A stretch of 64,000 bases of DNA, taken from NCBI RefSeq assembly GCF_011405515.1, contig NZ_AP022671.1:620001-684000 (forward strand), in the 5' to 3' direction. The stretch comes from Nitrospira sp. KM1 (lineage in GTDB: Bacteria; Nitrospirota; Nitrospiria; Nitrospirales; Nitrospiraceae). Of the stretch, positions 493 through 22,897 are shown in pieces (the stretch's first letter is position 1; each line of letters opens with the position of its first letter). The position numbers were made by a program, and so were the translations under genes. Under the pieces are notes generated by a model. That model was not told the DNA's origin, did not search any database, and saw nothing but the letters and a program-made list of their open reading frames with translations.

Positions 493-969
493 TTAAAAGA
501 AGGAATCCAACCACCCCTTTTCATGCCTTTTTTCAGGGGTGTCTTTGAAGACTTTCCCGACCGTCGTAACCCCCTTTCTCACCGCCTGGTCGAGGACATC
601 TCCCGACGTAAGCGGCTTGCAAAATGCCTGTTGTGCACCATTGGCAATAGCGAGGTTCAAGACTTCCTTATTGTGCAAGCGAGTGAGCACGATGACCGGA
701 ACATTCGGCCTTCTCGCTACCGGAACGAGTTTGATCAAAACTTCGAAACCGCTCATATCCGGAAGATCCAGCTCCAGAATTACGCACTGGACCGGACGAG
801 ACCCATAGATCGCCAGACCGGCCTGGCCGTCGAGCGCCTCGAGAATTCTGTACTCGGGAGAAATAATCCGCAAGCGGTCGACGAAGTAATGCCGGTCCTG
901 ATCATTCCCGTCTATGAACAAGACCGTTGTCGTACCGGTCGATGAGAAACCAGGAGACATGAAGGCCAT
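493..969 (-). CDS. Stand-alone receiver-domain protein, copy 1 (phospho-acceptor Asp is Glu)
   Basis: This 158-residue protein is a single CheY-like receiver without an output domain. Visible landmarks are the first strand VLFIDG at about 16-21, where the usual acidic pair is reduced to one Asp, ILELDLPDMSG at about 64-74, the conserved Thr in VIVLT, and the conserved Lys in CKP. In canonical receivers the phosphorylated Asp lies four residues before the Pro of DxxMP; here that position is Glu66. I infer it is not phosphorylated in the normal way and may act as a constitutive or protein-binding receiver. The ATG at 969 is preferred over an upstream in-frame start at 1086 because a GAGGGTGG stretch precedes it and a good promoter lies at 1019-1047. 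Paralogues are at 2429-2938 and 3168-3659. Confidence 0.8.
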   Translation of the reverse strand: MAFMSPGFSSTGTTTVLFIDGNDQDRHYFVDRLRIISPEYRILEALDGQAGLAIYGSRPVQCVILELDLPDMSGFEVLIKLVPVARRPNVPVIVLTRLHNKEVLNLAIANGAQQAFCKPLTSGDVLDQAVRKGVTTVGKVFKDTPEKRHEKGWLDSFF

Positions 970-1018
970 CGGCGACCACCCTCGGTTCATGATCTGGCGA
1001 TGACTGCGCGGTCCTAGA

Positions 1019-1080
1019 ATCGTAGGCCGTTGCAAAAGTGAGGTCAACAGGGCACAAATGGCCTCTGGTGGCCGATTTGC
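1019..1080 (-). promoter_or_regulatory. Promoter of receiver gene 1 with upstream conserved element
   Basis: Read on the minus strand, TTGACC (1042-1047) and TACGAT (1019-1024) form -35 and -10 boxes separated by 17 nt. The segment upstream of the -35 begins with GCAAATCGGC and is exactly 33 nt long up to TTGACC. The same arrangement precedes the other two receiver genes. The start of transcription would lie about 40 nt before the ATG at 969. Confidence 0.6.
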
Positions 1081-1206
1081 TGCCATTCCTGGCGCTCGAG
1101 AGACAGGCCTTCAGGCCACAATTCGAAGGAGCATCTGACACCGCTTTTAGCTTGGATTCTGGAAGGAAGTGCTTCAGAGAACTTGCTACGGTCCGACCGT
1201 GTTGCC

Positions 1207-1668
1207 TCAAGCCGCGACATTCACCCCATTCTGCTTGAGTACCTCCAATACCTTGGGAATATCCGGAGGGCCGGGGGGAATCTCCTTGCTGATGGCGGTG
1301 AACATCTGTGAAGCCGTGCCACCCTGACCGGTGAGTTCGAGCATTTGGCCGCCGCCGGAGCCGTAGCGAAAACCGTGAATCGTGCCGGCGGGCACGTGCA
1401 CGAGCGTACCGGGCATGCACAGTACGGTCTTGTCTGCGCAACTGAACTCGATCTGGCCTTTGAGGATAAAGAAAGACTCATCCCAGGCGTGGCTATGCAG
1501 CGGCGGACCCGTTCCTTCGTCTCCCTGCTGGAGGCTGATCTCATACGATCGTGTCGCCGCGTTTGACGCGAGCACGGTCACCTTGGTACCGAGCACATCC
1601 AATGCGGGATCGTAGTCCTTGGGTGTCACGATAAACGGCTGGGTCTTCACGGCGGTATGTTCGCTCAT
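1207..1668 (-). CDS. Cupin-domain protein
   Basis: This 153-residue protein has a single small cupin barrel. The first cupin motif is visible as PPLHSHAWDESFFILKG at about 55-71, with two His and a Glu as likely metal ligands, and the second as PAGTIHGFRY at about 93-102. The family binds a metal and either catalyses small-molecule reactions or senses ligands; no substrate can be read here. The ATG at 1668 is preceded by GAGGGGAG at a suitable distance. It stands alone between the first receiver gene and a divergent secreted-protein gene. No signal peptide is present, so it is expected in the cytoplasm. Confidence 0.8.
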   Translation of the reverse strand: MSEHTAVKTQPFIVTPKDYDPALDVLGTKVTVLASNAATRSYEISLQQGDEGTGPPLHSHAWDESFFILKGQIEFSCADKTVLCMPGTLVHVPAGTIHGFRYGSGGGQMLELTGQGGTASQMFTAISKEIPPGPPDIPKVLEVLKQNGVNVAA

Positions 1669-1947
1669 GGCTGGAATCTCCCCTCGTAATCGGGAAACGA
1701 TTGTCGCGGTTCCTCGATTCGCTTGTCAACGCCTGCCCGGACATTCACAGCGGCCAAGGGAAGCTCGGAGGCATCCGTAACACGCGGTCCGTTCGACCCC
1801 TGTTCTGTTCATTTCAATCAAGTTCTCCGTGACCGTCGAAAGTCACTCGTTTCTTGACGCCGGCAAGGTTGTTGGGAACGATAGCAGTCACAGCACGACA
1901 GGTTGTCAGATCAATCCGACCGGCACCGCAGAAATCAGGAGGCCCCG

Positions 1948-2274
1948 TTGAAACCGCATACGTTTACTACTGTGCTCACGTTCGTCCTCATTCTCTCCGT
2001 GAATGCCGCCTCCAATTTGCCTGCCTGCGCACGAGAATTGGACCTTGAGGTGTACGGCATGGTCAGTTATGGAATGACAGAAGCCGAGGTTGCCAGGCGC
2101 ACCGGCTCACCCGATCAGCGGATCGATCAATATGAACCGACCCAGCTTGGACAGCGCGTGGTGAGCTATCAGTATGTTTGGAATGGCGACGCGAGCAAAG
2201 GAGAATGGACAACGACCATTACATTTTCCAGCAATACCAACAAAGTGGTGCAGATTGACCGAAGCCGGCGATAG
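1948..2274 (+). CDS. Small secreted protein, BamE/SmpA-like fold suspected
   Basis: I start this gene at a TTG (1948) because an AGGAGG Shine-Dalgarno sequence lies 5 nt upstream. A frame-extended start at 1903 would put a charged segment before the signal peptide. The product is 108 residues: a signal peptide of about 26 residues (KPHTFTTVLTFVLILSV, cleavage probably near ACA-R), then VYGMVSYGMTEAEVARRTGSP and VVSYQYVW..TITFSSNTNKVVQI. The pattern of a helix with G.PD followed by a strand ending in KVVxI is typical of small BamE/SmpA/DUF2845-type periplasmic proteins. This assignment rests on the pattern only. Confidence 0.65.
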   Translation: MKPHTFTTVLTFVLILSVNAASNLPACARELDLEVYGMVSYGMTEAEVARRTGSPDQRIDQYEPTQLGQRVVSYQYVWNGDASKGEWTTTITFSSNTNKVVQIDRSRR

Positions 2275-2428
2275 TCAACCACCGATGGTTCTCTGCTGGA
2301 CGACACTCTCTCCATATTTCTGCCTCACGGTTGAACATCGATATCCATCGTGAGCCATCGAAGCTCGCATGAACTAAACCTGTGACATCCCTATATACAG
2401 ATCCAGCCCTTACCCATTGCAGGTGAGA

Positions 2429-2938
2429 TCACTGACCGGTGGGAGGTTGGTCCATCTTCCGGCCGGTTGTTTCTCTTCTAGGAAAGTCGAAAACTTCTCT
2501 CTGTTCCTTGCCGGTGCGTGGTACTGCCTCGATTGCTCTGAACACTGCCTTGCTGAGCACATCTCCTGATGTGATTGCCTTATGTAAACAGACCTGTGCC
2601 CCGTTCTTCTCGACAAGCTCACTGAGCATAAAATTGGACAGTGTGGTGAGGACAACGACCGGGACAGTCGGACGACGAGCGATGGGAACCAGCTCGATGA
2701 GAATCTCGAAGCCGCTCATATTAGGAAGATCGAGTTCCAGGACTACGCAATCGATGTGGTGAGTATAGAAGCAGTCGAGACCCGTCTTCCCACTGTCGGC
2801 CAGGAATGTGAAGTACTCGGGTGCAAGGCGGTCGGCAAAATATTCGCGGTCTTCGCGATTTCCGTCAATGATCAGAACGGACTTCCTATCTGAATGTGCT
2901 GGTGAAGATGGAGGCCGGGGAGGAAGCAGATTTATCAT
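2429..2938 (-). CDS. Stand-alone receiver-domain protein, copy 2 (phospho-acceptor Asp is Glu)
   Basis: This 169-residue single receiver is clearly paralogous to the genes at 493-969 and 3168-3659. VLIIDGNREDREYFADRL forms the first strand and helix, with one Asp instead of the usual acidic pair. CVVLELDLPNMSG carries Glu68 in place of the phosphorylatable Asp. The Thr of VVVLTTL and the Lys of LHKA remain. No output domain is present; a short basic tail follows the domain. The start is the ATG at 2938, with only a weak Shine-Dalgarno sequence. A TTGACC/CACAAT promoter lies at 2980-3008. It probably acts by binding a partner protein. Confidence 0.8.
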   Translation of the reverse strand: MINLLPPRPPSSPAHSDRKSVLIIDGNREDREYFADRLAPEYFTFLADSGKTGLDCFYTHHIDCVVLELDLPNMSGFEILIELVPIARRPTVPVVVLTTLSNFMLSELVEKNGAQVCLHKAITSGDVLSKAVFRAIEAVPRTGKEQREVFDFPRRETTGRKMDQPPTGQ

Positions 2939-2979
2939 GACAGCGATCTGAACAGGATGGTCAAAGAGCGTGAAAGGTT

Positions 2980-3041
2980 ATTGTGAGGCGGATGGCATAT
3001 TAGGTCAACAGACCGAGAAGCCCGGGTAGGAGCTGATTTGC
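2980..3041 (-). promoter_or_regulatory. Promoter of receiver gene 2 with upstream conserved element
   Basis: On the minus strand TTGACC (3003-3008) is followed after 17 nt by CACAAT (2980-2985). A 33-nt block starting GCAAATCAGCTCCTA lies directly upstream of the -35 (3009-3041). It matches the block in front of receiver gene 3 closely and that of gene 1 partly. Confidence 0.55.
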
Positions 3042-3167
3042 CGGTCAAGATCATCGGCTTGGCAGGGTCTGCCTATCAAAAGTCCCGTGCTAAATCATCG
3101 TGATGATTTTAGCTCCAGGCCGATTCACTTGGAAATCCACACGGCTGGCACAGCTCGCCCGCGAGCA

Positions 3168-3659
3168 TTAGATGGAAAGTCTGGTCTTAGTTCTAGAGAA
3201 CTTGAACAATTCTTTCTGTTCCTTAGTAGCATACGGGACTGCCGCTATCGCCTTGAACACAGCCTCCCTGAGTTGATCTCCTGACGTGGCCGCTTTATGC
3301 AGCCCTGCTTGAGCGCCGTTCTTCACAGCAAGTTCGGTCAGCATCACGTTCTGTAATCTGGTGAGAACGATGACCGGAACAGTCGGACGACGAGCCACAG
3401 GAACCAGCTCAACGAGTACTTCGAATCCGCTCATATCGGGAAGATCAAGCTCAAGGACTACACAGTCGATTCGGTGGGCGTAAAAACATTCGAGGCCGGC
3501 CTTTCCTCTACCGGCCATGTACAGGAAATACTCTGGCACAAGACGGTCGGCATAATACTCTCGATCATTGAGAATACCGTCAATGATCAGCACAGAGTTC
3601 CTGTCATAGCTTCCGGTGGATGATAATTGCGCAGGAGTGGAGGGTGAGGTAGACGCCAT
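3168..3659 (-). CDS. Stand-alone receiver-domain protein, copy 3 (phospho-acceptor Asp is Glu)
   Basis: This 163-residue receiver protein is the third tandem copy. VLIIDG is the first strand. CVVLELDLPDMSG carries Glu70 at the phospho-acceptor position, and VIVLTRL and LHKAATSGDQL contain the conserved Thr and Lys. The ATG at 3659 has a strong GCAGGAGG Shine-Dalgarno sequence. The N-terminal 22 residues are Ser/Thr/Pro-rich and differ between the copies, whereas the domain and promoter are conserved, pointing to duplication of whole gene-plus-promoter units. Its partner is unknown. Confidence 0.8.
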   Translation of the reverse strand: MASTSPSTPAQLSSTGSYDRNSVLIIDGILNDREYYADRLVPEYFLYMAGRGKAGLECFYAHRIDCVVLELDLPDMSGFEVLVELVPVARRPTVPVIVLTRLQNVMLTELAVKNGAQAGLHKAATSGDQLREAVFKAIAAVPYATKEQKELFKFSRTKTRLSI

Positions 3660-3694: not shown

Positions 3695-3756
3695 AGTCTG
3701 CGCCGGGTGGGAGATTTGGTCAAGGGACCTGGAAGCCAAGATAGGAGCCGATTTGC
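3695..3756 (-). promoter_or_regulatory. Promoter of receiver gene 3 with upstream conserved element
   Basis: On the minus strand TTGACC (3718-3723) is followed by a weak -10 (CAGACT at 3695-3700, 17-nt spacing). The 33-nt block upstream (3724-3756) starts GCAAATCGGCTCCTA, as in the other two receiver promoters. Confidence 0.5.
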
Positions 3757-3770
3757 CGGCCAGCATCGTC

Positions 3771-3985: not shown

Positions 3986-4022
3986 TCACTTCTTGGAGCG
4001 TAAGACAAGAGCTCCTTCGTGC

Positions 4023-4056
4023 TTGAGCTTGGCGAGCCTATATCATATATGGTATA
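4023..4056 (+). promoter_or_regulatory. Promoter with overlapping palindromic operator for the toxin-antitoxin pair
   Basis: TTGAGC (4023-4028) and TATATG (4046-4051) are spaced by 17 nt. The segment 4039-4056 is an 18-bp palindrome with one mismatched pair (TATATCATATATGGTATA), covering the -10. This is the usual layout of an autoregulated toxin-antitoxin operator bound by the HTH antitoxin. Confidence 0.55.
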
Positions 4057-4069
4057 CGTTAATCGCGAC

Positions 4070-4336
4070 ATGTGGGAGATCTTCGAACATCGACGCGCGG
4101 CAAAGCGGCTCGATCGTCTCCCAAAAGAAATCCTCAAACGGTATGAGAAGTGGAAAGATATCGTAAGGGTCTCTGGACCGTCAGGGCTTCGACTGATCAA
4201 GGGATTCCACGATGAGCAGCTGCAGGGAGAGTGGAAGGAACATCGGTCATCGCGCCTTGGCGATCAGTATCGCGTCATCTACAAGATGGACCAAGAACGA
4301 ATTTTGGTTCTTGTAATAGATTTAAACCGCGCATGA
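4070..4336 (+). CDS. RelE/YafQ-type toxin of a type II toxin-antitoxin pair
   Basis: The protein is 88 residues from the ATG at 4070. I prefer this over ATG 4049 because the -10 box and operator cover 4049, but 4049 remains possible. It begins MWEIFEHRRAAKRLDRLP, the usual helical start of RelE-fold toxins. It continues with GLRLIKGFHDEQLQGEWK, EHRSSRLGDQYRVIYKM and RILVLVIDLNRA, which match the beta-sheet core of the RelE/StbE (YafQ-like) mRNA interferases. The frame is complete. The XRE antitoxin gene follows 15 nt downstream, so the order is toxin first, as in higBA. Toxin activity is inferred from family and context. Confidence 0.75.
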   Translation: MWEIFEHRRAAKRLDRLPKEILKRYEKWKDIVRVSGPSGLRLIKGFHDEQLQGEWKEHRSSRLGDQYRVIYKMDQERILVLVIDLNRA

Positions 4337-4351
4337 TTATCGGAGGCAATC

Positions 4352-4618
4352 ATGAGAACTAGAGAATTTCAGCCGGCACGAAAGCGGGTGACCGTATCCG
4401 TCGGTGAATCGGTACGCATCATGCGGGAACTTCAAGGAGTCACACAGAATGAGCTGGCCAGGCTGACTGGAATCCCACAATCCACAATATCTGCCATCGA
4501 AACTGACAGCATCAATCTTGGCGTTGAACGTGCAAAGGTTCTGGCTCGTGCGCTACGTTGCCACCCGGCTGTGCTGGTTTTCCCAGGATGGGACATTCAC
4601 AAGCCGTCTGCCGCGTAA
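4352..4618 (+). CDS. XRE-family helix-turn-helix antitoxin (HigA-like)
   Basis: This 88-residue protein has a helix-turn-helix at about 22-75: ESVRIMRELQGVTQNELARL, then TGIPQSTISAIETDSINLG. The short C-terminus (CHPAVLVFPGWDI) resembles antitoxins of RelE-like toxins. A GGAGG Shine-Dalgarno sequence precedes the ATG at 4352. It is co-transcribed with the upstream toxin gene and is the obvious candidate to bind the palindrome at 4039-4056 and to neutralise the toxin. Confidence 0.8.
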   Translation: MRTREFQPARKRVTVSVGESVRIMRELQGVTQNELARLTGIPQSTISAIETDSINLGVERAKVLARALRCHPAVLVFPGWDIHKPSAA

Positions 4619-6192: not shown

Positions 6193-6740
6193 CAACCATC
6201 CGATCGACGCAGGCCACCGCAGCGTGTACTACGTGTTAAGCCCTCTCGCAACAAGGACTCTGAACTGGGGTTCTCCAACCCTCATTGCCTCACTCTCCGG
6301 CGGATAGCCCTGCTTCCGGCTGATCGGAAGTCTGGCTATCGGCTGATTGCAAGGTTCAAGGTCGGCTAATTGAAACCTTTCACGCCGGCTGCGCAACAGG
6401 TCTTTACTGATTCAACCCATTCCTATCATGCAGGTTGCATAATGCAGCACGAGGAGTTGGCTAGATTTCAATGCGAATGCGGGCTTTTCAAGTATGCGCC
6501 CTTTAGCAATGGGCACGTGATACACGTGGACTGCGTGCCGGGTGCGGATGAAAACGCTCTACAGATACGTGCGTGCGAATTTCCATCCAGTCGCTCAACT
6601 TCGAGTGGAATCTGCCTGAAAAAAGTAGAATGTCCCCGTTCGCAGCTCTCGTTTTGGCGTCCCTCATGACTCGACTTTTATACAAGATCTTCCGCCTTAC
6701 AAGAGTTGAACCGAAGGAAGGCCACATCGAGGATGCCGAC
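6193..6740. other. Intergenic stretch, no convincing gene
   Basis: Between hicB and the higB remnant no reading frame resembles a known protein. Some frames are open for 80-100 codons but have no Shine-Dalgarno sequence and no family signature. Given the density of broken toxin genes around it, this is probably decayed mobile DNA. Confidence 0.45.
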
Positions 6741-6815
6741 GTAGCAAACTGGCGCGTGATCTTTCGTTTCGAAGATGGACACGCGTGCGACGTCGAACTG
6801 ATTGACTACCACTAA
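6741..6815 (+). pseudogene. higB: higB toxin, C-terminal fragment only
   Basis: The last 24 codons before the stop at 6813-6815 read VANWRVIFRFEDGH and then CDVELIDYH. This is the C-terminal strand pair and tail of HigB toxins (NDQWRICFRWEDG...VDYH). Upstream of codon V the open frame continues to 6573 but no longer resembles HigB. The remaining three quarters of the toxin, including its RNA-binding helices, is missing. The intact higA follows 14 nt downstream. Confidence 0.7.
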
Positions 6816-6829
6816 TGGGAGAATGAACC

Positions 6830-7138
6830 ATGCGTATGAAGAGACCCCCTCATCCGGGACAGATCATTCGGCGGGAGTGCATCGAGCCCTTGAGCCTGAC
6901 AGTCACCGAAGCGGCGGCCCGACTGGGCGTGACGCGGCAGAATCTGAACAATCTGCTGAATGGGAAGTCGGGAATTTCGCCGGAAATGGCGATCCGGCTT
7001 TCCAAGGCCTTTGGCAGCCGGGCGGAAGTGTGGCTTGGGCTTCAGATGGACTACGATTTAGCAGAAGCAGAAAAGTCGGCAAGCAAAATCAGAGTCACGA
7101 GGATCACGCCCAAGAAAGAAGCCGGCGTGGTTGCGTGA
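6830..7138 (+). CDS. higA: HigA-family XRE antitoxin
   Basis: This 102-residue protein opens with [20 protein letters not shown], the typical HigA start, and has a helix-turn-helix at about 25-60 ([34 protein letters not shown]). The C-terminus has the common [15 protein letters not shown] segment. A GGGAGA Shine-Dalgarno sequence precedes the ATG at 6830. The toxin gene in front of it is reduced to its last 24 codons, so this is an orphan antitoxin that probably still regulates its own promoter or neutralises related toxins. Confidence 0.85.
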
Positions 7139-12150: not shown

Positions 12151-15100
12151 TTACTTCAGGTGTGAGCCGGGGGAACTTTCGTATGTGATCCGAAAGACCA
12201 TATCCGTCAGCCATCGCTTGAATGAATCGTTATCCATAAATTGCTTGAACAGCTCCGTATCGTCCTTGAGCACTGCGGTCATCACTCTTGCCAACGCCTT
12301 ATCGTGTTCAATTTTCGCGTTCTGCCTGTCCGAGTTCTGTTTCGCATTTTGATAGGCCGTGTCAGCAGCCACACGGTTCGGGATGTCTTCTGTGATCAGC
12401 TTGTGCACCCGGTCGGCGTCCGTCCAGGGAATGTTGCCGAATTGATCGTTGAAAGATTTGAGAATATTAGAAAGCCGGTCAAGTTCCGCTTCGGGCTTAC
12501 TCCCCCCGCCTGTCATGGGTACCGGTTCGATCTCGGCGTTCTCATTCGGCAACTGGATCTTCATCGCCGCTTTCTTCTCAATACGGTAACTGTCCATATC
12601 GATGGCGTCCAGGATGCCCTTGGAGAGATCCTCTTCTTTCGGCGCCGGCAACTTGAGCACGAGGAAGTTGAGAAAGATGGACAATTTCTCCCACTTGGCA
12701 TTCGTGTAGGGCAGGATTGAAGAGAGGAAGCCATACGCCCGCAGAAACGCCTTGGCCTTCCCCTTGAAGTCGACTTGCCCATCTTCGTTGAGCTGCTCAT
12801 TATAGACACCCACGCAGGCGTCCAAGATGGGATCGAGCCTGTCACGGTCGGCTCCGCCGAGATACAGCGTCACAAGCTGCTCGATCTGCGTCGGAGCATA
12901 CACTTGATAACCGTCGAGCGCGGCTTTCAAGTCATGGAGTTTGTTGGGATCAGTCTCTTCAGCAAGAATCGTCATGCGATAGTAGTCGGCGAAAGCCTCC
13001 TGGATCGTGTCGCTATCGTTCATGAAATCAAGTACGAATACATCATGCTTCTGTGGGTGAGAACGATTGAGACGCGAGAGGGTCTGTACGGCCTTGACCC
13101 CGGATAAAACCTTATCCACGTACATCGTGTGGAGCAGCGGCTCGTCGTAGCCGGTTTGGAACTTGTCCGCGCAGATCAGAAACCGATAGGGATCCTCCTG
13201 TATCTTGTCCGCTATCTGACTTGATGGAAAACCGTTCAGCGAAGCTTCCGATACCTTGACGCCGCCGTACTCGTGTTCGCCTGAGAAAGCCACGATGGGC
13301 TTGTGCGGACTCTTCCGTTCTGTCAGATAATCGCGGAAGGCATAGAAATACTGGATCGCCCGCTCGATCCCACTAGTCACCACCATAGCCCGCGCCTGCC
13401 CGCCGATCTTGTTCAACGCCAGGACCTGCTCATGGAAGTGATCCACCATGATTTCGGCCTTGAGGCGGATGGCGTGGTCATGACTTTCGACGTAGCGGCG
13501 TAGCTTCTTCTTTGCCCGCTTGGTGTCGAACTCCGGATCGCCCTCCACCTTCTTGATCAGTTTGTAGTAACTCTCGACCGGGGTGTAGTGCTTAAGCACA
13601 TCCAGGATGAACCCTTCCTGAATTGCCTGTTTCATCGTGTAGCTGTGGAAGGGACGATGTTGAATCTTCCCTTCTGCGTCCGGAGGAAGTGCCGCGCCGA
13701 AAATCTCCAACGTCTTGTTCTTTGGGGTGGCGGTGAAGGCGAAATAACTCGCGTTTGGAAGAAGCTTCTTGGCCTCCATGAGACGGTTGATTTTATCTTC
13801 AATGGTTTCGTCATCCTCCTCAGCTCCGGCAACCGAGAGCGCGATGCTAAGGGCAGCCGCTGTCCGACCACCCTGGCTGGAATGCGCTTCATCGATAATG
13901 ATGGCGAATTTCTTCCCACGTTGCTCATTTCCAATCTCATCCAGGATGAATGGAAACTTCTGCACCGTGGAGATGATGATCTTCTTCTCCTCGGCAATGA
14001 ATTTCCGTAGATCCCCGGAGTGCTCGGCATGCGCCATCGTTGCGCCCACCTGGGCAAACTGTTTAATGGTGTCACGGATTTGCTTATCGAGGATGCGACG
14101 ATCTGTGACCACGATGATCGAGTCAAAGGCCGATCCTTCGTCCTTAGGCAATCCGATGAGCTGATGTGCGAGCCAGGCAATGGAATTCGACTTGCCGCTG
14201 CCCGCTGAATGCTGAATCAAGTAACACCGGCCGACCCCGTGCTGTCGTGCATCGGCAAGGAGCTTGCGCACCGCATCGAGCTGATGAAAGCGGGGCCAGA
14301 TCTGTACCGCCCTCTTCCTGCCTGTCTTCTCATTCTTTTCTTCGACAACCTGAGCGTAGTTCTCCAGAATATCGGTCAGCCCTTCCCGGCTAAGAATCTG
14401 CCGCCATAGATAGTCGGTCTTAATGCCATGTGGGTTAGGCGGATTCCCTGCTCCATCGTTCCAACCTTGATTGAAGGGAAGAAACCATGACCCTTTCCCT
14501 TTGAGATGCGTACAGAAGCGGACTTCGTGATCATCTACCGCGAAGTGTACGATGCAGCGTCCAAACTCGAAGAGCTTCTCGTGCGGATCACGGTCCCGCT
14601 TGTATTGCTCTACCGCATCTTCGACCGTCTGCTTCGTAAGATTGTTCTTGAGCTCGAACGTGGCGATCGGCAAGCCATTGATGAATAGACAGAGATCGAG
14701 CGCTCGTTGTGTTTCATCACGGCTATAACGAAGCTGCCGCGTAACGGAGAAGCGATTGGCGGCATAGAGAGACTCGGCCTTCTCATTGCCCGGCGACGGC
14801 GTACCGCAAAATAAAGAGACATCGTACGGCCCGTCCTTGACGCCGTGCCTAAGCACATCAATAATTCCACGTTTGGTTATCTCCCCCTGAAGTCGAGACA
14901 GAAACTTGCGCCTTGTCGGGCTATCGTTATAGAGGTCCAGTGACTCCGCCGTTTTAGGCTGAGTGGCGTGGAGAAAGGCACGAAGTTGGGTGAGATCGAC
15001 ACAGAACTCGCGGTCGTAGTCTTCGGCTTGACCGACAATCCATCCGGTACCGCCATATCGTTCCCGAATAAGGCTGACGCCCTCACCAGCAGGCGGTGAT

Positions 15101-15174
15101 TCGCCGGATCGCCGGCCAGCCATCGCCGCAACGATAAGGCTTTCGAGACCTTTCTCGCTGGTGTCGGTGTTCAC
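12151..15174 (-). CDS. hsdR: Type I restriction enzyme, R subunit (HsdR)
   Basis: The product is about 1007 residues. I start at a GTG (15174) because GGAGAGG lies just upstream; a TTG at 15195 in frame is the alternative. The N-terminal nuclease domain shows the PD-(D/E)xK pattern (ALDLCLFINGLPIATFELKN at about 158-177). The helicase motor has a Walker A at about 323-328 (HSAGSGKSN), the DEAH box IIIDEAHSSQGG at about 430, motif III FAFTATP and a C-terminal helicase lobe (RFLICADKFQTGYDEPLLHT). It translocates and cuts DNA at unmethylated sites with HsdM and HsdS. It is separated from hsdS by the darTG genes and an IS, and has its own possible regulatory repeats at 15191-15298. Confidence 0.93.
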   Translation of the reverse strand: MNTDTSEKGLESLIVAAMAGRRSGESPPAGEGVSLIRERYGGTGWIVGQAEDYDREFCVDLTQLRAFLHATQPKTAESLDLYNDSPTRRKFLSRLQGEITKRGIIDVLRHGVKDGPYDVSLFCGTPSPGNEKAESLYAANRFSVTRQLRYSRDETQRALDLCLFINGLPIATFELKNNLTKQTVEDAVEQYKRDRDPHEKLFEFGRCIVHFAVDDHEVRFCTHLKGKGSWFLPFNQGWNDGAGNPPNPHGIKTDYLWRQILSREGLTDILENYAQVVEEKNEKTGRKRAVQIWPRFHQLDAVRKLLADARQHGVGRCYLIQHSAGSGKSNSIAWLAHQLIGLPKDEGSAFDSIIVVTDRRILDKQIRDTIKQFAQVGATMAHAEHSGDLRKFIAEEKKIIISTVQKFPFILDEIGNEQRGKKFAIIIDEAHSSQGGRTAAALSIALSVAGAEEDDETIEDKINRLMEAKKLLPNASYFAFTATPKNKTLEIFGAALPPDAEGKIQHRPFHSYTMKQAIQEGFILDVLKHYTPVESYYKLIKKVEGDPEFDTKRAKKKLRRYVESHDHAIRLKAEIMVDHFHEQVLALNKIGGQARAMVVTSGIERAIQYFYAFRDYLTERKSPHKPIVAFSGEHEYGGVKVSEASLNGFPSSQIADKIQEDPYRFLICADKFQTGYDEPLLHTMYVDKVLSGVKAVQTLSRLNRSHPQKHDVFVLDFMNDSDTIQEAFADYYRMTILAEETDPNKLHDLKAALDGYQVYAPTQIEQLVTLYLGGADRDRLDPILDACVGVYNEQLNEDGQVDFKGKAKAFLRAYGFLSSILPYTNAKWEKLSIFLNFLVLKLPAPKEEDLSKGILDAIDMDSYRIEKKAAMKIQLPNENAEIEPVPMTGGGSKPEAELDRLSNILKSFNDQFGNIPWTDADRVHKLITEDIPNRVAADTAYQNAKQNSDRQNAKIEHDKALARVMTAVLKDDTELFKQFMDNDSFKRWLTDMVFRITYESSPGSHLK

Positions 15175-15190
15175 GCTACCTCTCCAATCA

Positions 15191-15298
15191 GTCAAGTGAC
15201 CATCAAGTACTTAAAGGCTCTCTTACCTATGATTTCAAAAGAGTAGGCTCTCGGACTTGCTCATCAGACCCCATTCTAATCAAGTACCCATCAAGTAC
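15191..15298. promoter_or_regulatory. Two pairs of tandem TCAAGTAC repeats upstream of hsdR
   Basis: On the plus strand TCAAGTGAC (15192) and TCAAGTAC (15203) form one pair; TCAAGTAC (15280) and TCAAGTAC (15291) form a second. Within each pair the repeat distance is 11 bp, one helical turn, and the pairs are 88 bp apart. They lie just upstream of the hsdR Shine-Dalgarno sequence, in the only intergenic gap of the restriction locus, and look like binding sites for a dimeric regulator. Confidence 0.5.
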
Positions 15299-15369
15299 CG
15301 GAATGCCGGTCTGATAAATAAGACTTTCAACACTTGACTGGTTCATGTGCTGATAAGGACGACTCGAGC

Positions 15370-16431
15370 CTAGCGCGCGGCAGGTATAACGGATAACCAC
15401 CCCTTGTCCTGAAGCACCTGCCAGGCTAGGCCAATCTGTTGCGGCGAGAATCGACGCTTCCGCTCGTTCCATTCAAACGTCGCTACGGTGGCCTTCTCTA
15501 GTGTGCTCGCACCTTCCTGAGTCGTAACCCAGTGGACGGTAGACAAGAGTTCCAAGCCAAAGGGTGTTTCGAACCCCTTCACCAAATCCGCAACTCGCTC
15601 GAATCGACGTTGGGTGATCGGATGTCCAGTCAGAAATTGCGCGGCTTCCTGGACGGAGCCAGGCACCAGTTCGAGTGGTTTTTCCGGATCATCAATTTCA
15701 TCCGTATAGCCGGATGTCAAATAGCCTTCCACGCTGAGGAGTAGATGGCGAAGATTCTCCGCGTAGGGACCGTACGGAGCCTTGACATACCTGAGCCGCA
15801 GCGTCGTTTCTCCGGCCGCTTGCATGAAGTAGAAAAGCTTGTGGACCTCCAGCAAACTGATGAACGGGTCCATCAGCCCGGCAAGATAGTGCTGCATCAA
15901 AACCACAAGCGCAGCGCGTGCTTCCGTCATCTTCGGTACGGGCCCCGATGATGAGAGCGATTCTGCAGAGACAGGAGAGCCCGCTGGACTGAAAAGCAGT
16001 ACTCGTACATCCGGGACTGCCATCAAGGCCTGCTCGATTCGAGGTCGTACGTCTCCCCAATCGAGCCCTCCTTGTCCACATCCAAGCGGTGGAATAGCGA
16101 TAGAGCGAATGCCTAGCCGTAGGATTTCTGCGACGAGCGCCTTAAGTCCGGACTCGATATCAGTGAGCCGACTCTTCCCTTTCCAATGCCTCTTCGTGGG
16201 AAAATTGATGATGTAGCGAGGATTGGTAAGGCTGTTGATTCCGAAGACGAACATCTTCCCCGGCTGTAATTCCTTGCGCTTGCAGACCGCTTCGTAGGCC
16301 TTGAAGTTGTCTGGGAAGGCTTTGCGAAACTGGAGGGCAATCCCCCGCCCCATGATCCCGACACAGTTGACTGTATTCACCAACGCTTCCGCGTCGGCAG
16401 CCAGAATGTCACCTGATGTAATGGCAATCAT
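15370..16431 (-). CDS. darG: DarG, macrodomain DNA ADP-ribosyl-glycohydrolase antitoxin
   Basis: This 353-residue protein has two parts. Residues 1-150 are a macrodomain: IAITSGDILAADAEALVNTV followed by NCVGIMGRGIALQFRKAFP, then SIAIPPLGCGQGGLDW. This removes ADP-ribose from DNA bases. Residues 165-353 (ALVVLMQHYLAGLMDPFISL, APYGPYAENLRHLLLSVEGY) match the C-terminal domain of DarG that binds and blocks DarT. The ATG at 16431 follows the darT stop by 15 nt, with GAGGAG upstream. The gene is intact although darT is split by an IS, so DarG is now an antitoxin without its own toxin. Confidence 0.9.
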   Translation of the reverse strand: MIAITSGDILAADAEALVNTVNCVGIMGRGIALQFRKAFPDNFKAYEAVCKRKELQPGKMFVFGINSLTNPRYIINFPTKRHWKGKSRLTDIESGLKALVAEILRLGIRSIAIPPLGCGQGGLDWGDVRPRIEQALMAVPDVRVLLFSPAGSPVSAESLSSSGPVPKMTEARAALVVLMQHYLAGLMDPFISLLEVHKLFYFMQAAGETTLRLRYVKAPYGPYAENLRHLLLSVEGYLTSGYTDEIDDPEKPLELVPGSVQEAAQFLTGHPITQRRFERVADLVKGFETPFGLELLSTVHWVTTQEGASTLEKATVATFEWNERKRRFSPQQIGLAWQVLQDKGWLSVIPAAR

Positions 16432-16446
16432 GGGAGCGGCTCCTCT

Positions 16447-16654
16447 TCAATAATACCAATCACGAAGAATTTCAACAGGCGGCCTGTGAGCAGCACCCTG
16501 GAGAGCTGCTTCAGACTCGGCCTTTATCCTTGCAGAATAGACCCCAATCCGGCGAACCAATTCCCATGGAAACGATCCATGAACGAGAAATTCGGCCTGT
16601 TTACCTTCTTTCACATCAGAAGACCGGAAGTCGGTCTCAGCCACAGCAGCCTAG
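16447..16654 (-). pseudogene. darT: darT, C-terminal fragment downstream of the IS
   Basis: The minus-strand frame reads AAVAETDFRSSDVKEGKQAE, FLVHGSFPWELVRRIGVYSA, RIKAESEAALQGAAHRPPVE and ends ILRDWYY. This is the end of DarT proteins. The QAEFLV segment is the region where I place the family's catalytic Glu. It is cut off from the N-terminal part (17487-17981) by an 832-bp insertion sequence. The ATG at 16644 is an accidental start and no functional product is expected. Confidence 0.85.
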
Positions 16655-17490
16655 AACCTATCTCAAAATGGTTGTGTCGATGAAAGAAGTCTCTATAATG
16701 TGCCCGCATGCTGCGGTTGCGCGACGACCAATGGGAACGGATTCGGGAACATTTTCCCGAGGAACACATTCCCGAAGGCCGCCCCGGCCGCAAACCGGTG
16801 CCCGCCCGTGCCGTCTTGGAGGCGGTCTTGTGGATCCTGAACACTGGCGCGCAATGGCACCTGCTGCCGCAGTGCTATCCCAACTACAAAACGGTGCATC
16901 GCCGCTTTCAGCAGTGGTGCGACCGCGAGGTGTTGCGCGACATGCTCACGCAGTTGGCTAATACGTTGCGCGAGGAAGGCGCGATCGACGAGCGCGAGAG
17001 CTTCATTGATGCGACGTTTGCCTCGGCGAAGGGCGGAGGCGACGACATCGGGCCGACCCGCCGGGGCAAAGGCGTGAAGATTCTCGCCATTGTCGATCGG
17101 CATGGGTTGCCGCTCTCGGTGAGTACGCATGCCGCGAATCATCATGAGGTCACCTTAGTGCAACTCAGCTTCAATTTCTACATGCTGGAGGCCAAACCCG
17201 AGCATCTTATTGGCGATCGCGCCTATGACAGTGATGGGCTCGATGACGAGCTGAAGCAGAACGGCGTCAACATGATCGCGCCCCACCGCTCCACGCGAAA
17301 ACTGAAGACCCAAGATGGTCGCCATCTGCGCCGCTACCACCGTCGCTGGCTCGTCGAACGCTTCTTTGCATGGCTGCAATGGAAGCGGCGCTTGCTGATC
17401 CGCTGGGAGTATTACGCCACCAACTTTCTCGGATTTGTGCAGCTTGCATCCATCACCATGCTCCTGAAGCAATTTTGAGATAGGTTCTAG
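16651..17490 (+). mobile_element. IS5-family insertion sequence inserted in darT
   Basis: The element (16655-17486, 832 bp) has inverted ends AACCTATCTCAAAAT (16655-16669) and its reverse complement (17472-17486). CTAG stands on both sides (16651-16654 and 17487-17490), either as a 4-bp target duplication or as part of the ends. It carries one transposase gene. Size, single-frame transposase and YTAR-like target agree with the IS5 family, IS427/IS1031-type groups. Confidence 0.88.
16708..17478 (+). CDS. IS5-family DDE transposase
   Basis: This 256-residue transposase opens LRLRDDQWERIREHFPEEHI and contains VLWILNTGAQWHLLPQCYPN, the typical IS5/DUF4096 N-terminal region. The DDE residues are Asp101 (FIDATFASAKGG), Asp170 (IGDRAYDSDGLD) and Glu217 (RRWLVERFFAWLQ). 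The frame is complete, without the frameshift seen in two-frame members of this family. The ATG at 16708 has little Shine-Dalgarno sequence. Both inverted ends are intact, so the element may still be mobile. Confidence 0.92.
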   Translation: MLRLRDDQWERIREHFPEEHIPEGRPGRKPVPARAVLEAVLWILNTGAQWHLLPQCYPNYKTVHRRFQQWCDREVLRDMLTQLANTLREEGAIDERESFIDATFASAKGGGDDIGPTRRGKGVKILAIVDRHGLPLSVSTHAANHHEVTLVQLSFNFYMLEAKPEHLIGDRAYDSDGLDDELKQNGVNMIAPHRSTRKLKTQDGRHLRRYHRRWLVERFFAWLQWKRRLLIRWEYYATNFLGFVQLASITMLLKQF

Positions 17491-17981
17491 TTAATCTGAT
17501 CGAGCTTATCTAGTCCATCGCAAATCTGAACATAATAGGAACCCGCGTTCGAAAGACTAAACGTCCACAGACGCTCCTTTCTCTCTGCCCATTCCACAAC
17601 CTCGTGCAGATCTGCCTCTAAATGAACAATCGGTTCCTGTCCACCTCGATAACTTAGGTCTGGATGATTGGCACAATGAATCAAGTACAACATTACAGAT
17701 CGTGGGCAGAAATAGAATGGGACATAGTCGCCAACCTTCGTTCCAGCATGGCATGAAACGGAGATCTCTTCGATTCGCCGGCGTTTGATCTCGGACATCC
17801 CAATTGTCACGCTTGGACCACCCCGAGCAGCAATAGTGGCATCACACAAAAGCGTTCCGTCACCCACGATAGTCACCAGATTATCGATATGGGTAATGTG
17901 ATAAATCTTAGGGCGATCAGGGACCGGCTCACGTCTCGGCCTCTTCAGACACCGCGTCGAGGTCTTCGCTTTCCGGATCAT
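17487..17981 (-). pseudogene. darT: darT, N-terminal part, disrupted by the IS
   Basis: The minus-strand frame reads VPDRPKIYHITHIDNLVTIV, GDGTLLCDATIAARGGPSVT, IGMSEIKRRRIEEISVSCHA, GTKVGDYVPFYFCPRSVMLY, LIHCANHPDLSYRGGQEPIV and ends SYYVQICDGLDKLDQIN at a TAG (17487-17489). This is the first two thirds of DarT (DUF4433), an NAD-dependent DNA ADP-ribosyltransferase. No start codon occurs in frame near VPDRP; the nearest ATG is at 17981, inside hsdS, so even the start may be damaged. Removing the IS and one CTAG leaves TAG in frame where relatives have Trp. Confidence 0.85.
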
Positions 17982-19371
17982 TTTCGCGTTCCGCGACCGC
18001 TTCAGCATCATCGAGAGGTCCGGGCTCTTCTGATGCGTCCGGCAGCTTGGCTGCTGCCTCCCGCACATCAAGCTTGCCGGTGACCACGTCGGCGATCAGG
18101 CGAGTGCGGTATTCGCGAAGCAGACAGATCTCGCGTTCTGCGAACTGCAAAGCCGACTCGACTTCCGTGGTAGCGTCCTTTACCCATCCAACGATTTGGT
18201 GTTGCTCGTCGATCGGCGGCAGAGCCACACGAAAGTGACGAAGATCTTCACATGTAAGTGCGCCCTTTGTGCTCCCGGAATCGTCACTCATACGGCGCAG
18301 TTCTGAATATGCAGCACCAAGGAACTTCTGCAAGTACTCTGATGTGGCGATCCTATCGTGCTTACGCGGCGTGATGAACGCGATGTGTTGATTGATCGTT
18401 GCCTCAATCATCAGAACAGCGGCTCTCCCACGCGTCTTTCCCTGCCCTGTGATCGCAACTAGCACGCTGCCTGCGGGAACACGAGGCAAGTGGCACTCCC
18501 GTAGCGCCGAATCGGTGACCAATTGGTCAGACGCCACAATGGAGCCAGCATTTACGCTGCTACTGTTAAGCCACGGGTACGTGCCGTCACTCCAATAAGA
18601 CGTGTTGCCGCGTGATGGCGTTGAGCCATTGCCGATAGCAGCAAAATGTCCAATCTGCCAGACCTCCCAATGTGCCGGCACATCCCCCAACCATTCCACG
18701 CCTGAGGGTTTGAGGCGGACACTGGGGTCGAGACCGCGTGTCACAGCATGGTGAATGATGGCCTGCTTCTGCTCCTCCAGCAGTTTGATTAGCTTCTGCT
18801 TGGTGCGGATATAGCGCTGGATACGTCGGTCGGCATGGTCGAGGAAGTGGACGATGGCGGATTGTTCGGACCCGGGAGGGGCGCAAAACGGGGTCTCCTT
18901 CATCCGAGCTTGTGACAAGTCCCACTGACCAATCCGCACACCATCGGATGCTTGCGTGAAGAATGGAACGTAGGTCTTCGAACGAATTGCTGCATGAAAG
19001 AATTCGCCCTCAACCCCGTTCACATCGAATACAAAGTACGCAGGGCTAACAATGCCATCATGGTGCGACACTCCGTATGAGCCTTGCCATGCCTTCATCT
19101 TGTTCATCGCAAACTGCCCGACACGAACGACCTTGTAGTTGCTCAAATCATCAGGGATGAAGTTGTGGTTCTCGTCCTTGCTTGTCGTGTCTCGTTGAAT
19201 CACGCCTTTCTCTCGCACGACAGAAAGCAGTGGCAGATCAGGTTGATTGCGGTCAGTTACTCGATCCAATACATGTCGTAGTTTTCGTACCTCCCAATGC
19301 TCTGGCACATCCCCTAGCCAGGGCACACCGGAGTCCTTCATGGCTGGATAGGGTTTGAGGCCAGCAATCAT
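17929..19371 (-). CDS. hsdS: Type I restriction enzyme, S (specificity) subunit
   Basis: This 480-residue protein has two target-recognition halves. The first begins DSGVPWLGDVPEHWEVRKLR (about 12-31), the second PSGVEWLGDVPAHWEVWQIG (about 217-236). Each is followed by a variable region and a helical spacer (RYIRTKQKLIKLLEEQKQAI; REICLLREYRTRLIADVVTG). The acidic tail of about 40 residues is unusual. The ATG overlaps the herA stop by 4 nt (ATGA). It sets the DNA sequence recognised by the HsdM/HsdR complex. It is separated from hsdM by two inserted genes. Confidence 0.92.
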   Translation of the reverse strand: MIAGLKPYPAMKDSGVPWLGDVPEHWEVRKLRHVLDRVTDRNQPDLPLLSVVREKGVIQRDTTSKDENHNFIPDDLSNYKVVRVGQFAMNKMKAWQGSYGVSHHDGIVSPAYFVFDVNGVEGEFFHAAIRSKTYVPFFTQASDGVRIGQWDLSQARMKETPFCAPPGSEQSAIVHFLDHADRRIQRYIRTKQKLIKLLEEQKQAIIHHAVTRGLDPSVRLKPSGVEWLGDVPAHWEVWQIGHFAAIGNGSTPSRGNTSYWSDGTYPWLNSSSVNAGSIVASDQLVTDSALRECHLPRVPAGSVLVAITGQGKTRGRAAVLMIEATINQHIAFITPRKHDRIATSEYLQKFLGAAYSELRRMSDDSGSTKGALTCEDLRHFRVALPPIDEQHQIVGWVKDATTEVESALQFAEREICLLREYRTRLIADVVTGKLDVREAAAKLPDASEEPGPLDDAEAVAERENDPESEDLDAVSEEAET

Positions 19372-21464
19372 GCTCCTTCACTCCCTGTCGGGCCAGTCTG
19401 CCAGTCTTGAGCGATCCGTTCCCAATCCGTGTTTCTCGAGATGGGCTGGCTGTCTTCGTCCTTGCCCACCCACACCCCCCAGAACTCCGGGTCGTCGGAG
19501 CGTGGTTGCTGTGACTTCGGTAGATCGTTCATCTTCACAAGGACCGGCAACTCTGACGCCCAACCAAGAAGAATTGCGCTCTGTGACGGTAGGGATGGAA
19601 GCTCGCGGAGCAGGCCTCTCAGATTGTCTGGAACGAGGCGTTGGACCAACTCCTGATCGCGGTCGTTGCTTATCCGGTGGAGAAGAAACGTGTTGCACTG
19701 CGATAGCACAGTGGGTGAAAGCTCAGACGGTCGCTGCGAGGAAAGGACCAATCCGAGTCCAAACTTCCGGCCCTCGCGGGCGATACGCTCGAAGACCTGA
19801 CAACAAACAGATGCCGCGTCCTGATTCTCGATATCCTCCTTGTACCGCTTTATAAAGGTGTGGGCCTCTTCCATGACGAGAACTGTTGGGAGCGCCACAC
19901 CGTTTAATTTCACGTAACGTTGGAGTGCTTCAAAAATCATACGGGCAATCACAGCTGTCACAATATGAACGACTTCCGTTGGCACCAAGGAAAGGTCGAT
20001 CACTGACACACAACCATTCTCGGCATTGTCGGTGCCAACGTAGTTTTCGAGCCATCCTTGGAGTGTTGTGGCAGTCGAGCCGCCCATGATGGGCTTCATG
20101 CGTGTGTCGGTCAATAACGCGCGTATTCGTACGAGCAGGGTTTCGACGTGCTCGGAGACGTTGAGCATCTCCGCTACCGCCTCGATGCAGCGAAGAAGGG
20201 ATGTGCCCTCGAATGGACGAGGGGCATCGACATCCGCAGGGATCACGTCAGCTTCCGTGCCGCCGAATGCTGAATGAGCCTCGCTTGCAGCCGCCAGCAA
20301 TTCTTGGATCTCAGGCCTGGTGAAGTCGTGGTGAGCATATTGGACTCGCCGTGGTACGCAGAGAGCCTCGATTTTTCCAACGAGCGCCTGCAGTTTGGTG
20401 TGCTGATCGCCGCCGAAAGACGGCAAGTCGGATTCAAGCCCCGTTTTCCATTTCTCCAATTTTTCGAAGAACGACTTGGGCTTTGGGAATGCTCCCCAGG
20501 GACTGCCGCTGTTCTGCTCAATCCGAATAGTCGTCACGATCGTACGAAGAAAGCTGCGCATCTCGTGATTGGAGTCGGCTGTAGGCTCTATATCGCTGTC
20601 GCGAATAAAGCGGAGCGCATGCATTAGTGTAGGTCGCTGTGTCTTTGCGCTTGCCTGTGTGAACGAGCACCACTCGGCGCTATTCCAGAACCACAACGGA
20701 ACTTTCAACGCCCTTTCGCCTTCAGCAGGATTCACCTTGAAGATTCTCGCCTTGGCCGAGTCGGCGGCGGCGAAGGCTCGTGAATATTCGCCGTTCGGGT
20801 CGAGGACGATGAACCGGGCATTTGGCTGACCTTGTTGGCGAATCGCATGCGCCTCTTCGAGGCCCCAGCGAATCAACCCGGCAACCGAACAGGATTTCCC
20901 GCTCCCGGTGTTTCCGAGGACGGCTAGGTGCCGCCCGAACAAGCGGTTCGGATCGACGCGTACCTCAGCATCACCGGCAAGAGGGCTTGTCCCAATCTTG
21001 ACGCGCCGACGCTCGCCGGACTCGACAATTGAGCGAAGCTGTAACTCGGTTGGGAGCATGACCGCAGCGCCAATCGATGGCAGCGCATCGGCGCCGCGCG
21101 TGAATACGTAACCCCTCTCTTTACCAGTCTTCTCTGGTCGAACGCGTAAGGTGCCGAGCGGGTTGAGCCGTAGCCTGCGTGATGGAAAGGGTAGATCCAC
21201 GAGGCCAAAGTCCTGCATTCCGCGCCGTTTGGGGAATGCCGACCGTTCCACGGTCAACCATTCAACCTGGCCGACCAATAACCCTTCATCTACAGAGATC
21301 AGCAGATAGCCGTTTACTCGGGGGAAGGGTCGGGGTGCTCCGGCGTTGAGCGCTACCGACCCGGGCGCCTCAATGTCGAGAGCGACCTTGATCTCGTCAG
21401 GCGAGACGAAATCGACAGTGCCGATCAAGAGGCTCCCTGCCTGCTCGAAGGGCGCTTGGCTCAC
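19368..21464 (-). CDS. HerA-like hexameric ATPase (SIR2-HerA module)
   Basis: This 698-residue protein has an N-terminal HAS-barrel-like beta domain (about 1-110), then the ATPase core: Walker A GNTGSGKS at 184-191, a second conserved strand ARFIVLDPNGEYSRAF at about 216-231, Walker B LVMEEAH at 529-535, and the late motif GLGLVLSSQRPSELSPTVLS. This is the HerA/DUF87 family, which forms hexameric rings. The gene overlaps the SIR2-like gene (21461-22897) by 4 nt. In SIR2-HerA defence systems the ATPase assembles with the NADase; the adjacency here supports the same role. Confidence 0.88.
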   Translation of the reverse strand: MSQAPFEQAGSLLIGTVDFVSPDEIKVALDIEAPGSVALNAGAPRPFPRVNGYLLISVDEGLLVGQVEWLTVERSAFPKRRGMQDFGLVDLPFPSRRLRLNPLGTLRVRPEKTGKERGYVFTRGADALPSIGAAVMLPTELQLRSIVESGERRRVKIGTSPLAGDAEVRVDPNRLFGRHLAVLGNTGSGKSCSVAGLIRWGLEEAHAIRQQGQPNARFIVLDPNGEYSRAFAAADSAKARIFKVNPAEGERALKVPLWFWNSAEWCSFTQASAKTQRPTLMHALRFIRDSDIEPTADSNHEMRSFLRTIVTTIRIEQNSGSPWGAFPKPKSFFEKLEKWKTGLESDLPSFGGDQHTKLQALVGKIEALCVPRRVQYAHHDFTRPEIQELLAAASEAHSAFGGTEADVIPADVDAPRPFEGTSLLRCIEAVAEMLNVSEHVETLLVRIRALLTDTRMKPIMGGSTATTLQGWLENYVGTDNAENGCVSVIDLSLVPTEVVHIVTAVIARMIFEALQRYVKLNGVALPTVLVMEEAHTFIKRYKEDIENQDAASVCCQVFERIAREGRKFGLGLVLSSQRPSELSPTVLSQCNTFLLHRISNDRDQELVQRLVPDNLRGLLRELPSLPSQSAILLGWASELPVLVKMNDLPKSQQPRSDDPEFWGVWVGKDEDSQPISRNTDWERIAQDWQTGPTGSEGA

Positions 21465-22897
21465 GACACTGAACCTCCACCATCAGGCACGGCTTCGCTA
21501 ACAGTGTCGTGTTGGGCTTGCTGCGTGCCCCACCTGGCTTTCAGCAACTCCGCCATGCGGAACGTGGTGCGGTCGATGGCCGGTTTCGGCAGGTAGTGTT
21601 CGACGAGAATCGCGAGGTTACCGAGATGATCTCCAAGCAACAGCGTGATTTGAGCATGTCTCCTCAACTTCTCATACGTGCGCATAATTCGGCCGAGGGG
21701 GTCGCCGTAGGCGATGATTACGAGATGTGCCGACGGAATCGTCAGCATGTCCTCGATGACCCGGTTGATGTGGTCGTCGCCGAAGCTATAGCCATAGCAG
21801 ACCAAGGTGCTGTTGGGACGACAAATCCCTGCGGCGAAGTCGCGGAACAGTTCGACATACGGATGCGAGGCCGTCTCCCGGTCCTTAGCGGCATTCGGAT
21901 AGATCATGAACCGCATTGCATCAGCGCCGTTAAGTCCCGGAGCGTTGAGATAAGGCGCGGCATCCTCCGCGCCAAACGGCAGTCCGATCCGCCGGATGGT
22001 GCGTTCCACATCCACCCAATCGACCGATCCATGTAGCTTCGTGAACCGTGCCACGCCTTCAAGATAGCGCGGTTCGCCTCGGATGCCGGGCGGGTTGTAA
22101 TGCAAATCGATATCCAGGCGCGACGCCCGGAATAGCGGCGCAAGGGTTCCGACGAAGCGGTCAATCAGCCGAAGCCCAGCCACATCTGCACCGGCTTCAA
22201 TATAACGGTCGTAGTTCGTCGTGAATAGATTCAGACGATCTCTCGTGCCAGATCGGCTGGCGAAGCTCATCAGAAAGCTGACGAGGTAGTTAAACGCCTC
22301 CTCTCGCTTCACCGTAGCCGTTGCTGCCAGGCTCCGCTCCGCCTTGAGGATCGAATTAGCAAACGAGGCAAGGGCGCTTTTCAGGTCCTTCCGCAGCCCT
22401 TCGACCTGCTCCTGTTCATGGGAATCTCCTGCCTTGGTTGACGCGACGATCTCGAGGCCCCGCAAAAGCTCGTTGGCCGCACGGATCTGGTCCTCAAAGT
22501 TGCCACTGTTCCGCCCTGCCATCGTAGCGACGCGTTTTGCATCCTCCGTGATTTCCGCGGACAGCACGTCGAACTTGACAGCGGTCATACCAGGTAACTC
22601 CGCCTCTGTCGCGAGTCCGTGAATGGCGTGAGTCAACCCGGAGCCGAGAAGCAAAGACAGGTGCTCAGACTGGACGAGGGCCGTCAGCCAAGGTTCGATG
22701 CGCGGTCGTAATTTCTCTGGACCAAAGGTCTCATCGGCCTTCGCCCAGGAGCAGGGGGTGTCAGGAGATACTTTGAAGGCTTTGCTAGGTTCCGTTGTGG
22801 TTGCATCGTACCTGATGAAGATTGGAGCAGGGTCATCGCGAGTCTTGAGAATCTGCCCTTGAGCCCTGATGTGTTGCTGAACTTGCTCCGGCATCAT
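21461..22897 (-). CDS. SIR2-family NADase-type defence protein
   Basis: This 478-residue protein has the Rossmann-type SIR2 core: SLLLGSGLTHAIHG at 82-95 (NAD-binding G-G-T loop), LFTTNYDRYIEAGADVAG at about 224-241 (TTNYD), FTKLHGSVDWVD at 285-296 with the conserved His, and VCYGYSFGDDHINRVIEDML at 367-386. These are the hallmarks of SIR2-like effectors that degrade NAD on infection. The start overlaps the hsdM stop (TAATG) and its end overlaps the herA-like gene. I infer a SIR2-HerA abortive-infection module built into the restriction operon. Confidence 0.88.
   Translation of the reverse strand: MMPEQVQQHIRAQGQILKTRDDPAPIFIRYDATTTEPSKAFKVSPDTPCSWAKADETFGPEKLRPRIEPWLTALVQSEHLSLLLGSGLTHAIHGLATEAELPGMTAVKFDVLSAEITEDAKRVATMAGRNSGNFEDQIRAANELLRGLEIVASTKAGDSHEQEQVEGLRKDLKSALASFANSILKAERSLAATATVKREEAFNYLVSFLMSFASRSGTRDRLNLFTTNYDRYIEAGADVAGLRLIDRFVGTLAPLFRASRLDIDLHYNPPGIRGEPRYLEGVARFTKLHGSVDWVDVERTIRRIGLPFGAEDAAPYLNAPGLNGADAMRFMIYPNAAKDRETASHPYVELFRDFAAGICRPNSTLVCYGYSFGDDHINRVIEDMLTIPSAHLVIIAYGDPLGRIMRTYEKLRRHAQITLLLGDHLGNLAILVEHYLPKPAIDRTTFRMAELLKARWGTQQAQHDTVSEAVPDGGGSVS

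Follow-up and report, generated by a model that had tools for sequence, protein, structure and literature searches.

The aspartate-less receivers characterised so far are individual proteins, most of which carry an output domain. Across aspartate-less receivers in general, Glu is the commonest replacement of the phospho-acceptor Asp (26%), and the second residue of the acidic pair is acidic in only 29% (PMC4395418). Glu alone is often non-activating, and replacing it does not abolish the activity of ChxR (PMC4395418, PMC12632262). A 2025 review calls the switching of bacterial pseudo-receivers a mystery, with mechanisms that are unsolved (PMC12632262). Here, we analyzed three receivers of this type in one window, the whole 64,000-nucleotide stretch of DNA under study, together with their relatives.

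Active sites and upstream regions of the window receivers

The three receiver genes are all on the minus strand, their reading frames are intact, and each encodes a Glu-type stand-alone receiver. Copy 1 (493..969) is 158 residues in length, copy 2 (2429..2938) is 169 and copy 3 (3168..3659), assigned by Pfam and the family alignment, is 163. Pfam Response_reg scores the three ORFs at 48.9, 45.8 and 42.8 bits (cut-off 30.2); no domain other than the receiver was found in them, and they stop after the receiver, without the fused kinase core of the PPHK type. The first-pass annotation had described three tandem receivers. Three receiver ORFs are indeed present, but only copies 2 and 3 are in tandem, because copy 1 is set apart by one cupin gene (1207-1668, minus strand) and one ORF on the plus strand (1903-2274).

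The acceptor motifs of the three ORFs read VILELDLPDMSG, VVLELDLPNMSG and VVLELDLPDMSG. When aligned with the family, all three copies carry Glu in the acceptor column and Asp-Gly at the acidic pair, while the active-site Thr and Lys (T98 and K120 in copy 2, with equivalents in copies 1 and 3) are kept; the alignment thus bears out both the Glu replacement and the reduced acidic pair that the annotation had read from the window. Compared to a canonical receiver, the copies retain the conserved Thr/Ser and Lys and lack the intact acidic pair and the acceptor Asp; like aspartate-less receivers, they combine a receiver fold, seen in sequence and structure, with an acceptor position that is not Asp. 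The annotation had named another Asp alignable at the acceptor position as one finding that would overturn it. No such Asp can be shifted into the column: the Asp found two residues later occupies D+2, and the motif of canonical sister paralogues lines up as VVLDLDMP. A chance origin of the Glu is excluded, as it is common to 24 of 25 paralogues and both GAA and GAG are used.

The longest ORF of copy 1 begins at 1086. We place its start most likely at the ATG at 969, judging from the sequence, because one sigma70-like promoter (TTGACC-17-TACGAT, 1018..1046, minus strand; found by inspection as a consensus match only) sits within the longer ORF; the SD-like GAGGGTGG precedes the ATG at 969. Copy 2 has one putative promoter (TTGACC-17-CACAAT, 2980..3008, minus strand, by eye), and the conserved block upstream of it, GGCAAATCAGCTCCTACCCGGGCTTCTCGGTC (3009..3045, minus strand), contains the shared core and is an operator candidate. 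For copy 3, comparison with the DNA of two distant copies defined the promoter region and conserved upstream block (3695..3764, minus strand). The block, ∼35 bp in length, precedes a promoter-like site with TTGACC and a 17-bp spacer at copies 2 and 3 and at two further copies (1.757 and 3.237 Mb), and these are exactly the four places in the genome that match its core with three or fewer mismatches. Upstream of copy 1, the arrangement is similar and weaker (by eye). Between copy 3 and the 1.757 and 3.237 Mb copies, DNA similarity spans the gene and about 105 bp upstream; in both comparisons it ends at the same base, 3764.

Several other features of the window were noted by eye. Toxin-antitoxin-like pairs of HigB-like and XRE/HigA-like genes (4019-4618 and 6573-7138) adjoin the receivers. 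The stretch 12151-24876 contains type I restriction-modification genes and looks like a defence island; one HerA-like ATPase gene (19368-21464) and one SIR2-like gene (21461-22897) lie between the restriction-modification subunits, and one macro-domain-like gene (15370-16431) lies inside the stretch.

Extent and phylogeny of the family

In the complete genome (4.51 Mb), our search identified 25 family loci, 36-100% identical to copy 2. The family is clearly delimited, with the last member at 54 bits and the next receiver at 38. The acceptor is Glu at 24 loci, including one pseudogene at 2.203 Mb, and Asp at one (1.7587 Mb), which has Asp-Ala at the acidic pair; 24 of the 25 loci are free of internal stop codons. 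The genome contains 145 receivers in total, 17% of which are family loci, and the three relatives that have at most one family member contain 66-85 receivers. Counting clear members only, the six other genomes of the genus carry 12 (some cut by contig ends), 6 plus a fragment, 3, 1, 0 and 0. At a threshold of 1e-25, matches were found in 8 of 175 genomes of the taxonomic family, belonging to 3 of its 22 genera, and in a phylum-level sample 6 of 395 genomes had one. The plasmid search gave no match, and plasmid carriage was rejected. Scanning genome contigs with one peptide pattern, an approach that cannot prove absence elsewhere, returned just one distant cyanobacterial locus. No earlier description of the expansion was found in the freely accessible literature searched.

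The canonical type is represented by seven paralogues in two relatives within the genus; they carry Asp and an intact acidic pair, and form one clade (100/99). In a tree computed without the two trait columns, this Asp-type clade nests with the Glu type in one larger clade, with support of 95/92. Glu coincides with a non-acidic second residue in all 37 family members in which both sites are readable, and the canonical relatives have Asp and both acids of the pair in 10 of 10 cases. Two odd members are also without an intact pair: one in the same genome combines Ala at the pair with Asp, and one in another genus combines Gly with Ala. One distant receiver (74.8 bits) combines Glu with Asp-Glu. 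A single origin of Glu was not rejected (p-AU 0.30) and is no more than possible, the deep branches being weak.

The annotation had treated the three window copies as one local set. The AU test rejected them as one clade (p 0.0025), and with it a local triplication; copy 3 groups closer to the 1.757 and 3.237 Mb copies than to its neighbouring copy. The annotation's two statements on history fared better. That the change predates the duplications agrees with the Glu being common to 24 of 25 paralogues here and to paralogues in four congeneric genomes, and that it is kept by selection agrees with purifying dN/dS values of 0.10-0.22 among paralogues (dS is saturated for the deep pairs) and with the interchange of GAA and GAG. 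Taken together, the expansion of Glu-type pseudo-receivers is real, at the level of the genus, and under selection.

Four paralogues have an unusual start region. L008, L015, L016 and L024 (genome positions 3250866, 1062156, 3258769 and 2203177) lack an in-frame ATG, GTG or TTG at the expected place; instead, ATG GGR TAA stands one base out of frame, mostly preceded by a Shine-Dalgarno-like site, and the receiver carries on in the -1 frame. Exact matches to this motif occur in the genome only at these four loci. Pairs among the three intact ones have dN/dS of 0.17-0.20, with dS near saturation. A slip on the G run at the stop codon, or a rare start codon, is possible.

Pocket conservation and candidate roles

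AlphaFold2 modelled copy 2 as a full receiver fold with a mean pLDDT of 88.2. By profile, its best solved relative is 6oap, the N-terminal receiver of the receiver-controlled dual-sensor histidine kinase PPHK, at E 4e-31 (next best 1e-17) and 34-37% identity. Foldseek also ranks the PPHK receiver first; in VIA-align, 6oap is tied with many receivers at Z 19-20, so that structural similarity by itself does not set 6oap apart. Across the 35 Glu-type sequences compared, L22, D25, E68, L71, L80, G113, A114 and K120 are invariant, and D73, S75, G76, L97 and T98 are nearly so. In 32 of the 35, the Thr is followed by Arg, His or Lys. The conserved pocket face is built by the start of helix 1 (D-R-x-Y-F/Y), the acceptor loop (L-E-L-D-L-P-D-M-S-G), T-R-L-x-N and K-x-x-T-S-G-D, and most of the variation falls on outward-facing positions of helices 2, 4 and 5.

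As far as sequences go, relatives of the N-terminal input receivers of receiver-controlled histidine kinases were multiplied within the genus, reaching 25 loci in this genome under purifying selection, and nearly all of these have lost the acceptor Asp (to Glu) and the second metal-binding acid together, both of which the sister paralogues keep. We favour, with about even confidence, the reading that they are genus-specific, stand-alone aspartate-less (pseudo-)receivers which, free of phosphate, probably serve as docking adaptors and signal through their abundance. With neither an Asp at the acceptor position nor the residue that directly binds Mg2+, such a protein would not take up phosphate, and the Glu, together with the retained Thr and Lys, may hold the pocket in one fixed state. 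Since conservation is on the pocket face and variation on the outside of helices 2, 4 and 5, docking would probably occur through the face by which receivers contact kinases. The effect would be set by the amount made of each copy, not by phosphorylation. We count the separate promoter-like sites with their shared upstream block, and the restriction of the family to few genomes, toward this reading. It seems that a signal switch was turned into an always-set adaptor and kept by selection.

Several observations count against the adaptor reading. Neighbour clustering around the copies found no gene, and so no partner, that recurs at most of them. The Asp paralogue at 1.7587 Mb could still be phosphorylated, conservation of the pocket face could come partly from folding constraints, and not every copy would act as a bare adaptor, since some carry additional domains. 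The partner candidates were rejected: genes of CheB/CheR type and hybrid kinases are near only a few clusters, and one 78-residue protein stands beside three copies, yet exists in nine scattered copies. A link to the KaiB/KaiC clock was likewise rejected, as none of the seven genomes of the genus has a KaiB match. That link had been suggested by one canonical relative in another genus (L108:2677-7050), which, by eye, adjoins KaiB-like genes and a large hybrid kinase. Among the fusions, a PhyH-type 2-oxoglutarate dioxygenase domain with the HxD motif is joined to two Glu-type receivers (L080:9053-10159 and L082:8882-10147; Pfam was tested for L080). One species-specific domain of ∼85 residues, unmatched in Pfam, has four occurrences in the genome (L073:8986-9759, L084:143-937, L084:11522-11968 and genome position 1791542): one precedes and another follows a Glu-type receiver within the same ORF, and the other two lie within about 13 kb of such a receiver.

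The Glu may instead be a putative mimic of phospho-Asp, with the copies constitutively "on" and permanently activating the target of a phosphorylated receiver. Glu with Thr and Lys kept is the classical arrangement of such a mimic, and the exchange of Asp for Glu partly activates many receivers (PMC12632262). However, the exchange by itself is often insufficient, and ChxR stays active with its Glu replaced (PMC4395418). Moreover, in most copies of this genome Cys, Ala or Gly occupies the aromatic switch position beside the Lys, and the usual Thr-Tyr coupling is therefore missing; we consider this explanation unlikely. We give similarly little credence to the copies being decoys, a special case of the adaptor reading in which they occupy histidine kinases without taking phosphate and damp signalling. 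The conserved pocket face, the kinship to receivers that sit on kinases and the hybrid kinases in the vicinity of the 3.23-3.34 Mb cluster would suit decoys, but the copies have no recurring kinase neighbour; with a separate kinase for each copy, the kinase-contact residues of helix 1 should differ, and several are uniform.

Still less probable is a proliferating gene family without a strong cellular role, in which a short gene-plus-promoter unit duplicates and slowly decays. The copies are scattered, one being the pseudogene at 2.203 Mb, their number differs greatly between species, and similarity has a sharp boundary around the trio that copy 3 forms with its relatives at 1.757 and 3.237 Mb. 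Decay is at odds with the dN/dS of 0.10-0.22, the 24 of 25 loci without internal stops and the retention of Glu, Thr and Lys, and the copies inspected showed neither a transposase nor a terminal repeat. Phosphorylation after all, on the Glu itself (possible in principle, as remarked in PMC4395418) or on the neighbouring Asp that most copies have at D+2, is highly improbable with the direct Mg2+ ligand gone from every Glu-type copy of the family.

Returning to docking adaptors, we can offer only as a doubtful possibility the wider picture that one species made a phosphorylated receiver into a family of some 25 docking proteins that work without phosphate, many of them under promoters of their own, and so gained a two-component layer set by expression of decoys or adaptors instead of phosphorylation. 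If so, the Asp-type sister copies within the genus would form a before-and-after pair. The order of the changes, and what the Glu does, can be tested directly on the available series of close relatives, which comprises canonical copies with Asp, copies with Glu, one copy that has Asp but no metal site and, in another genus, one copy with Ala. Pseudo-receivers can also form a fast-growing share of a two-component network, here 25 of 145 receivers.

Comparison with known receivers

Like single-domain response regulators (CheY, DivK, Spo0F and MrrA), the window copies are stand-alone receivers with no output domain; different from these, which are phosphorylated on Asp, the window family has lost both the acceptor and the metal site. 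The PPHK receiver (PDB 6oap, 6oaq and 6ob8), the closest solved sequence, is canonical, with Asp-Asp and Asp, and is fused to further sensor and kinase parts, whereas the window copies have no kinase attached. The aspartate-less or pseudo-receivers (ALR, PsR), such as ChxR, RitR, FrzS and the plant PRRs, resemble the window family in having a receiver fold with the acceptor Asp replaced, and also in keeping the first acid and the Lys and losing the second acid (PMC4395418). Different from the characterised members of that class, the window family has expanded to 25 loci within a single genome, as stand-alone receivers. Its residue pattern is typical of aspartate-less receivers; what is unusual is how many stand-alone copies there are, and that canonical sisters exist.
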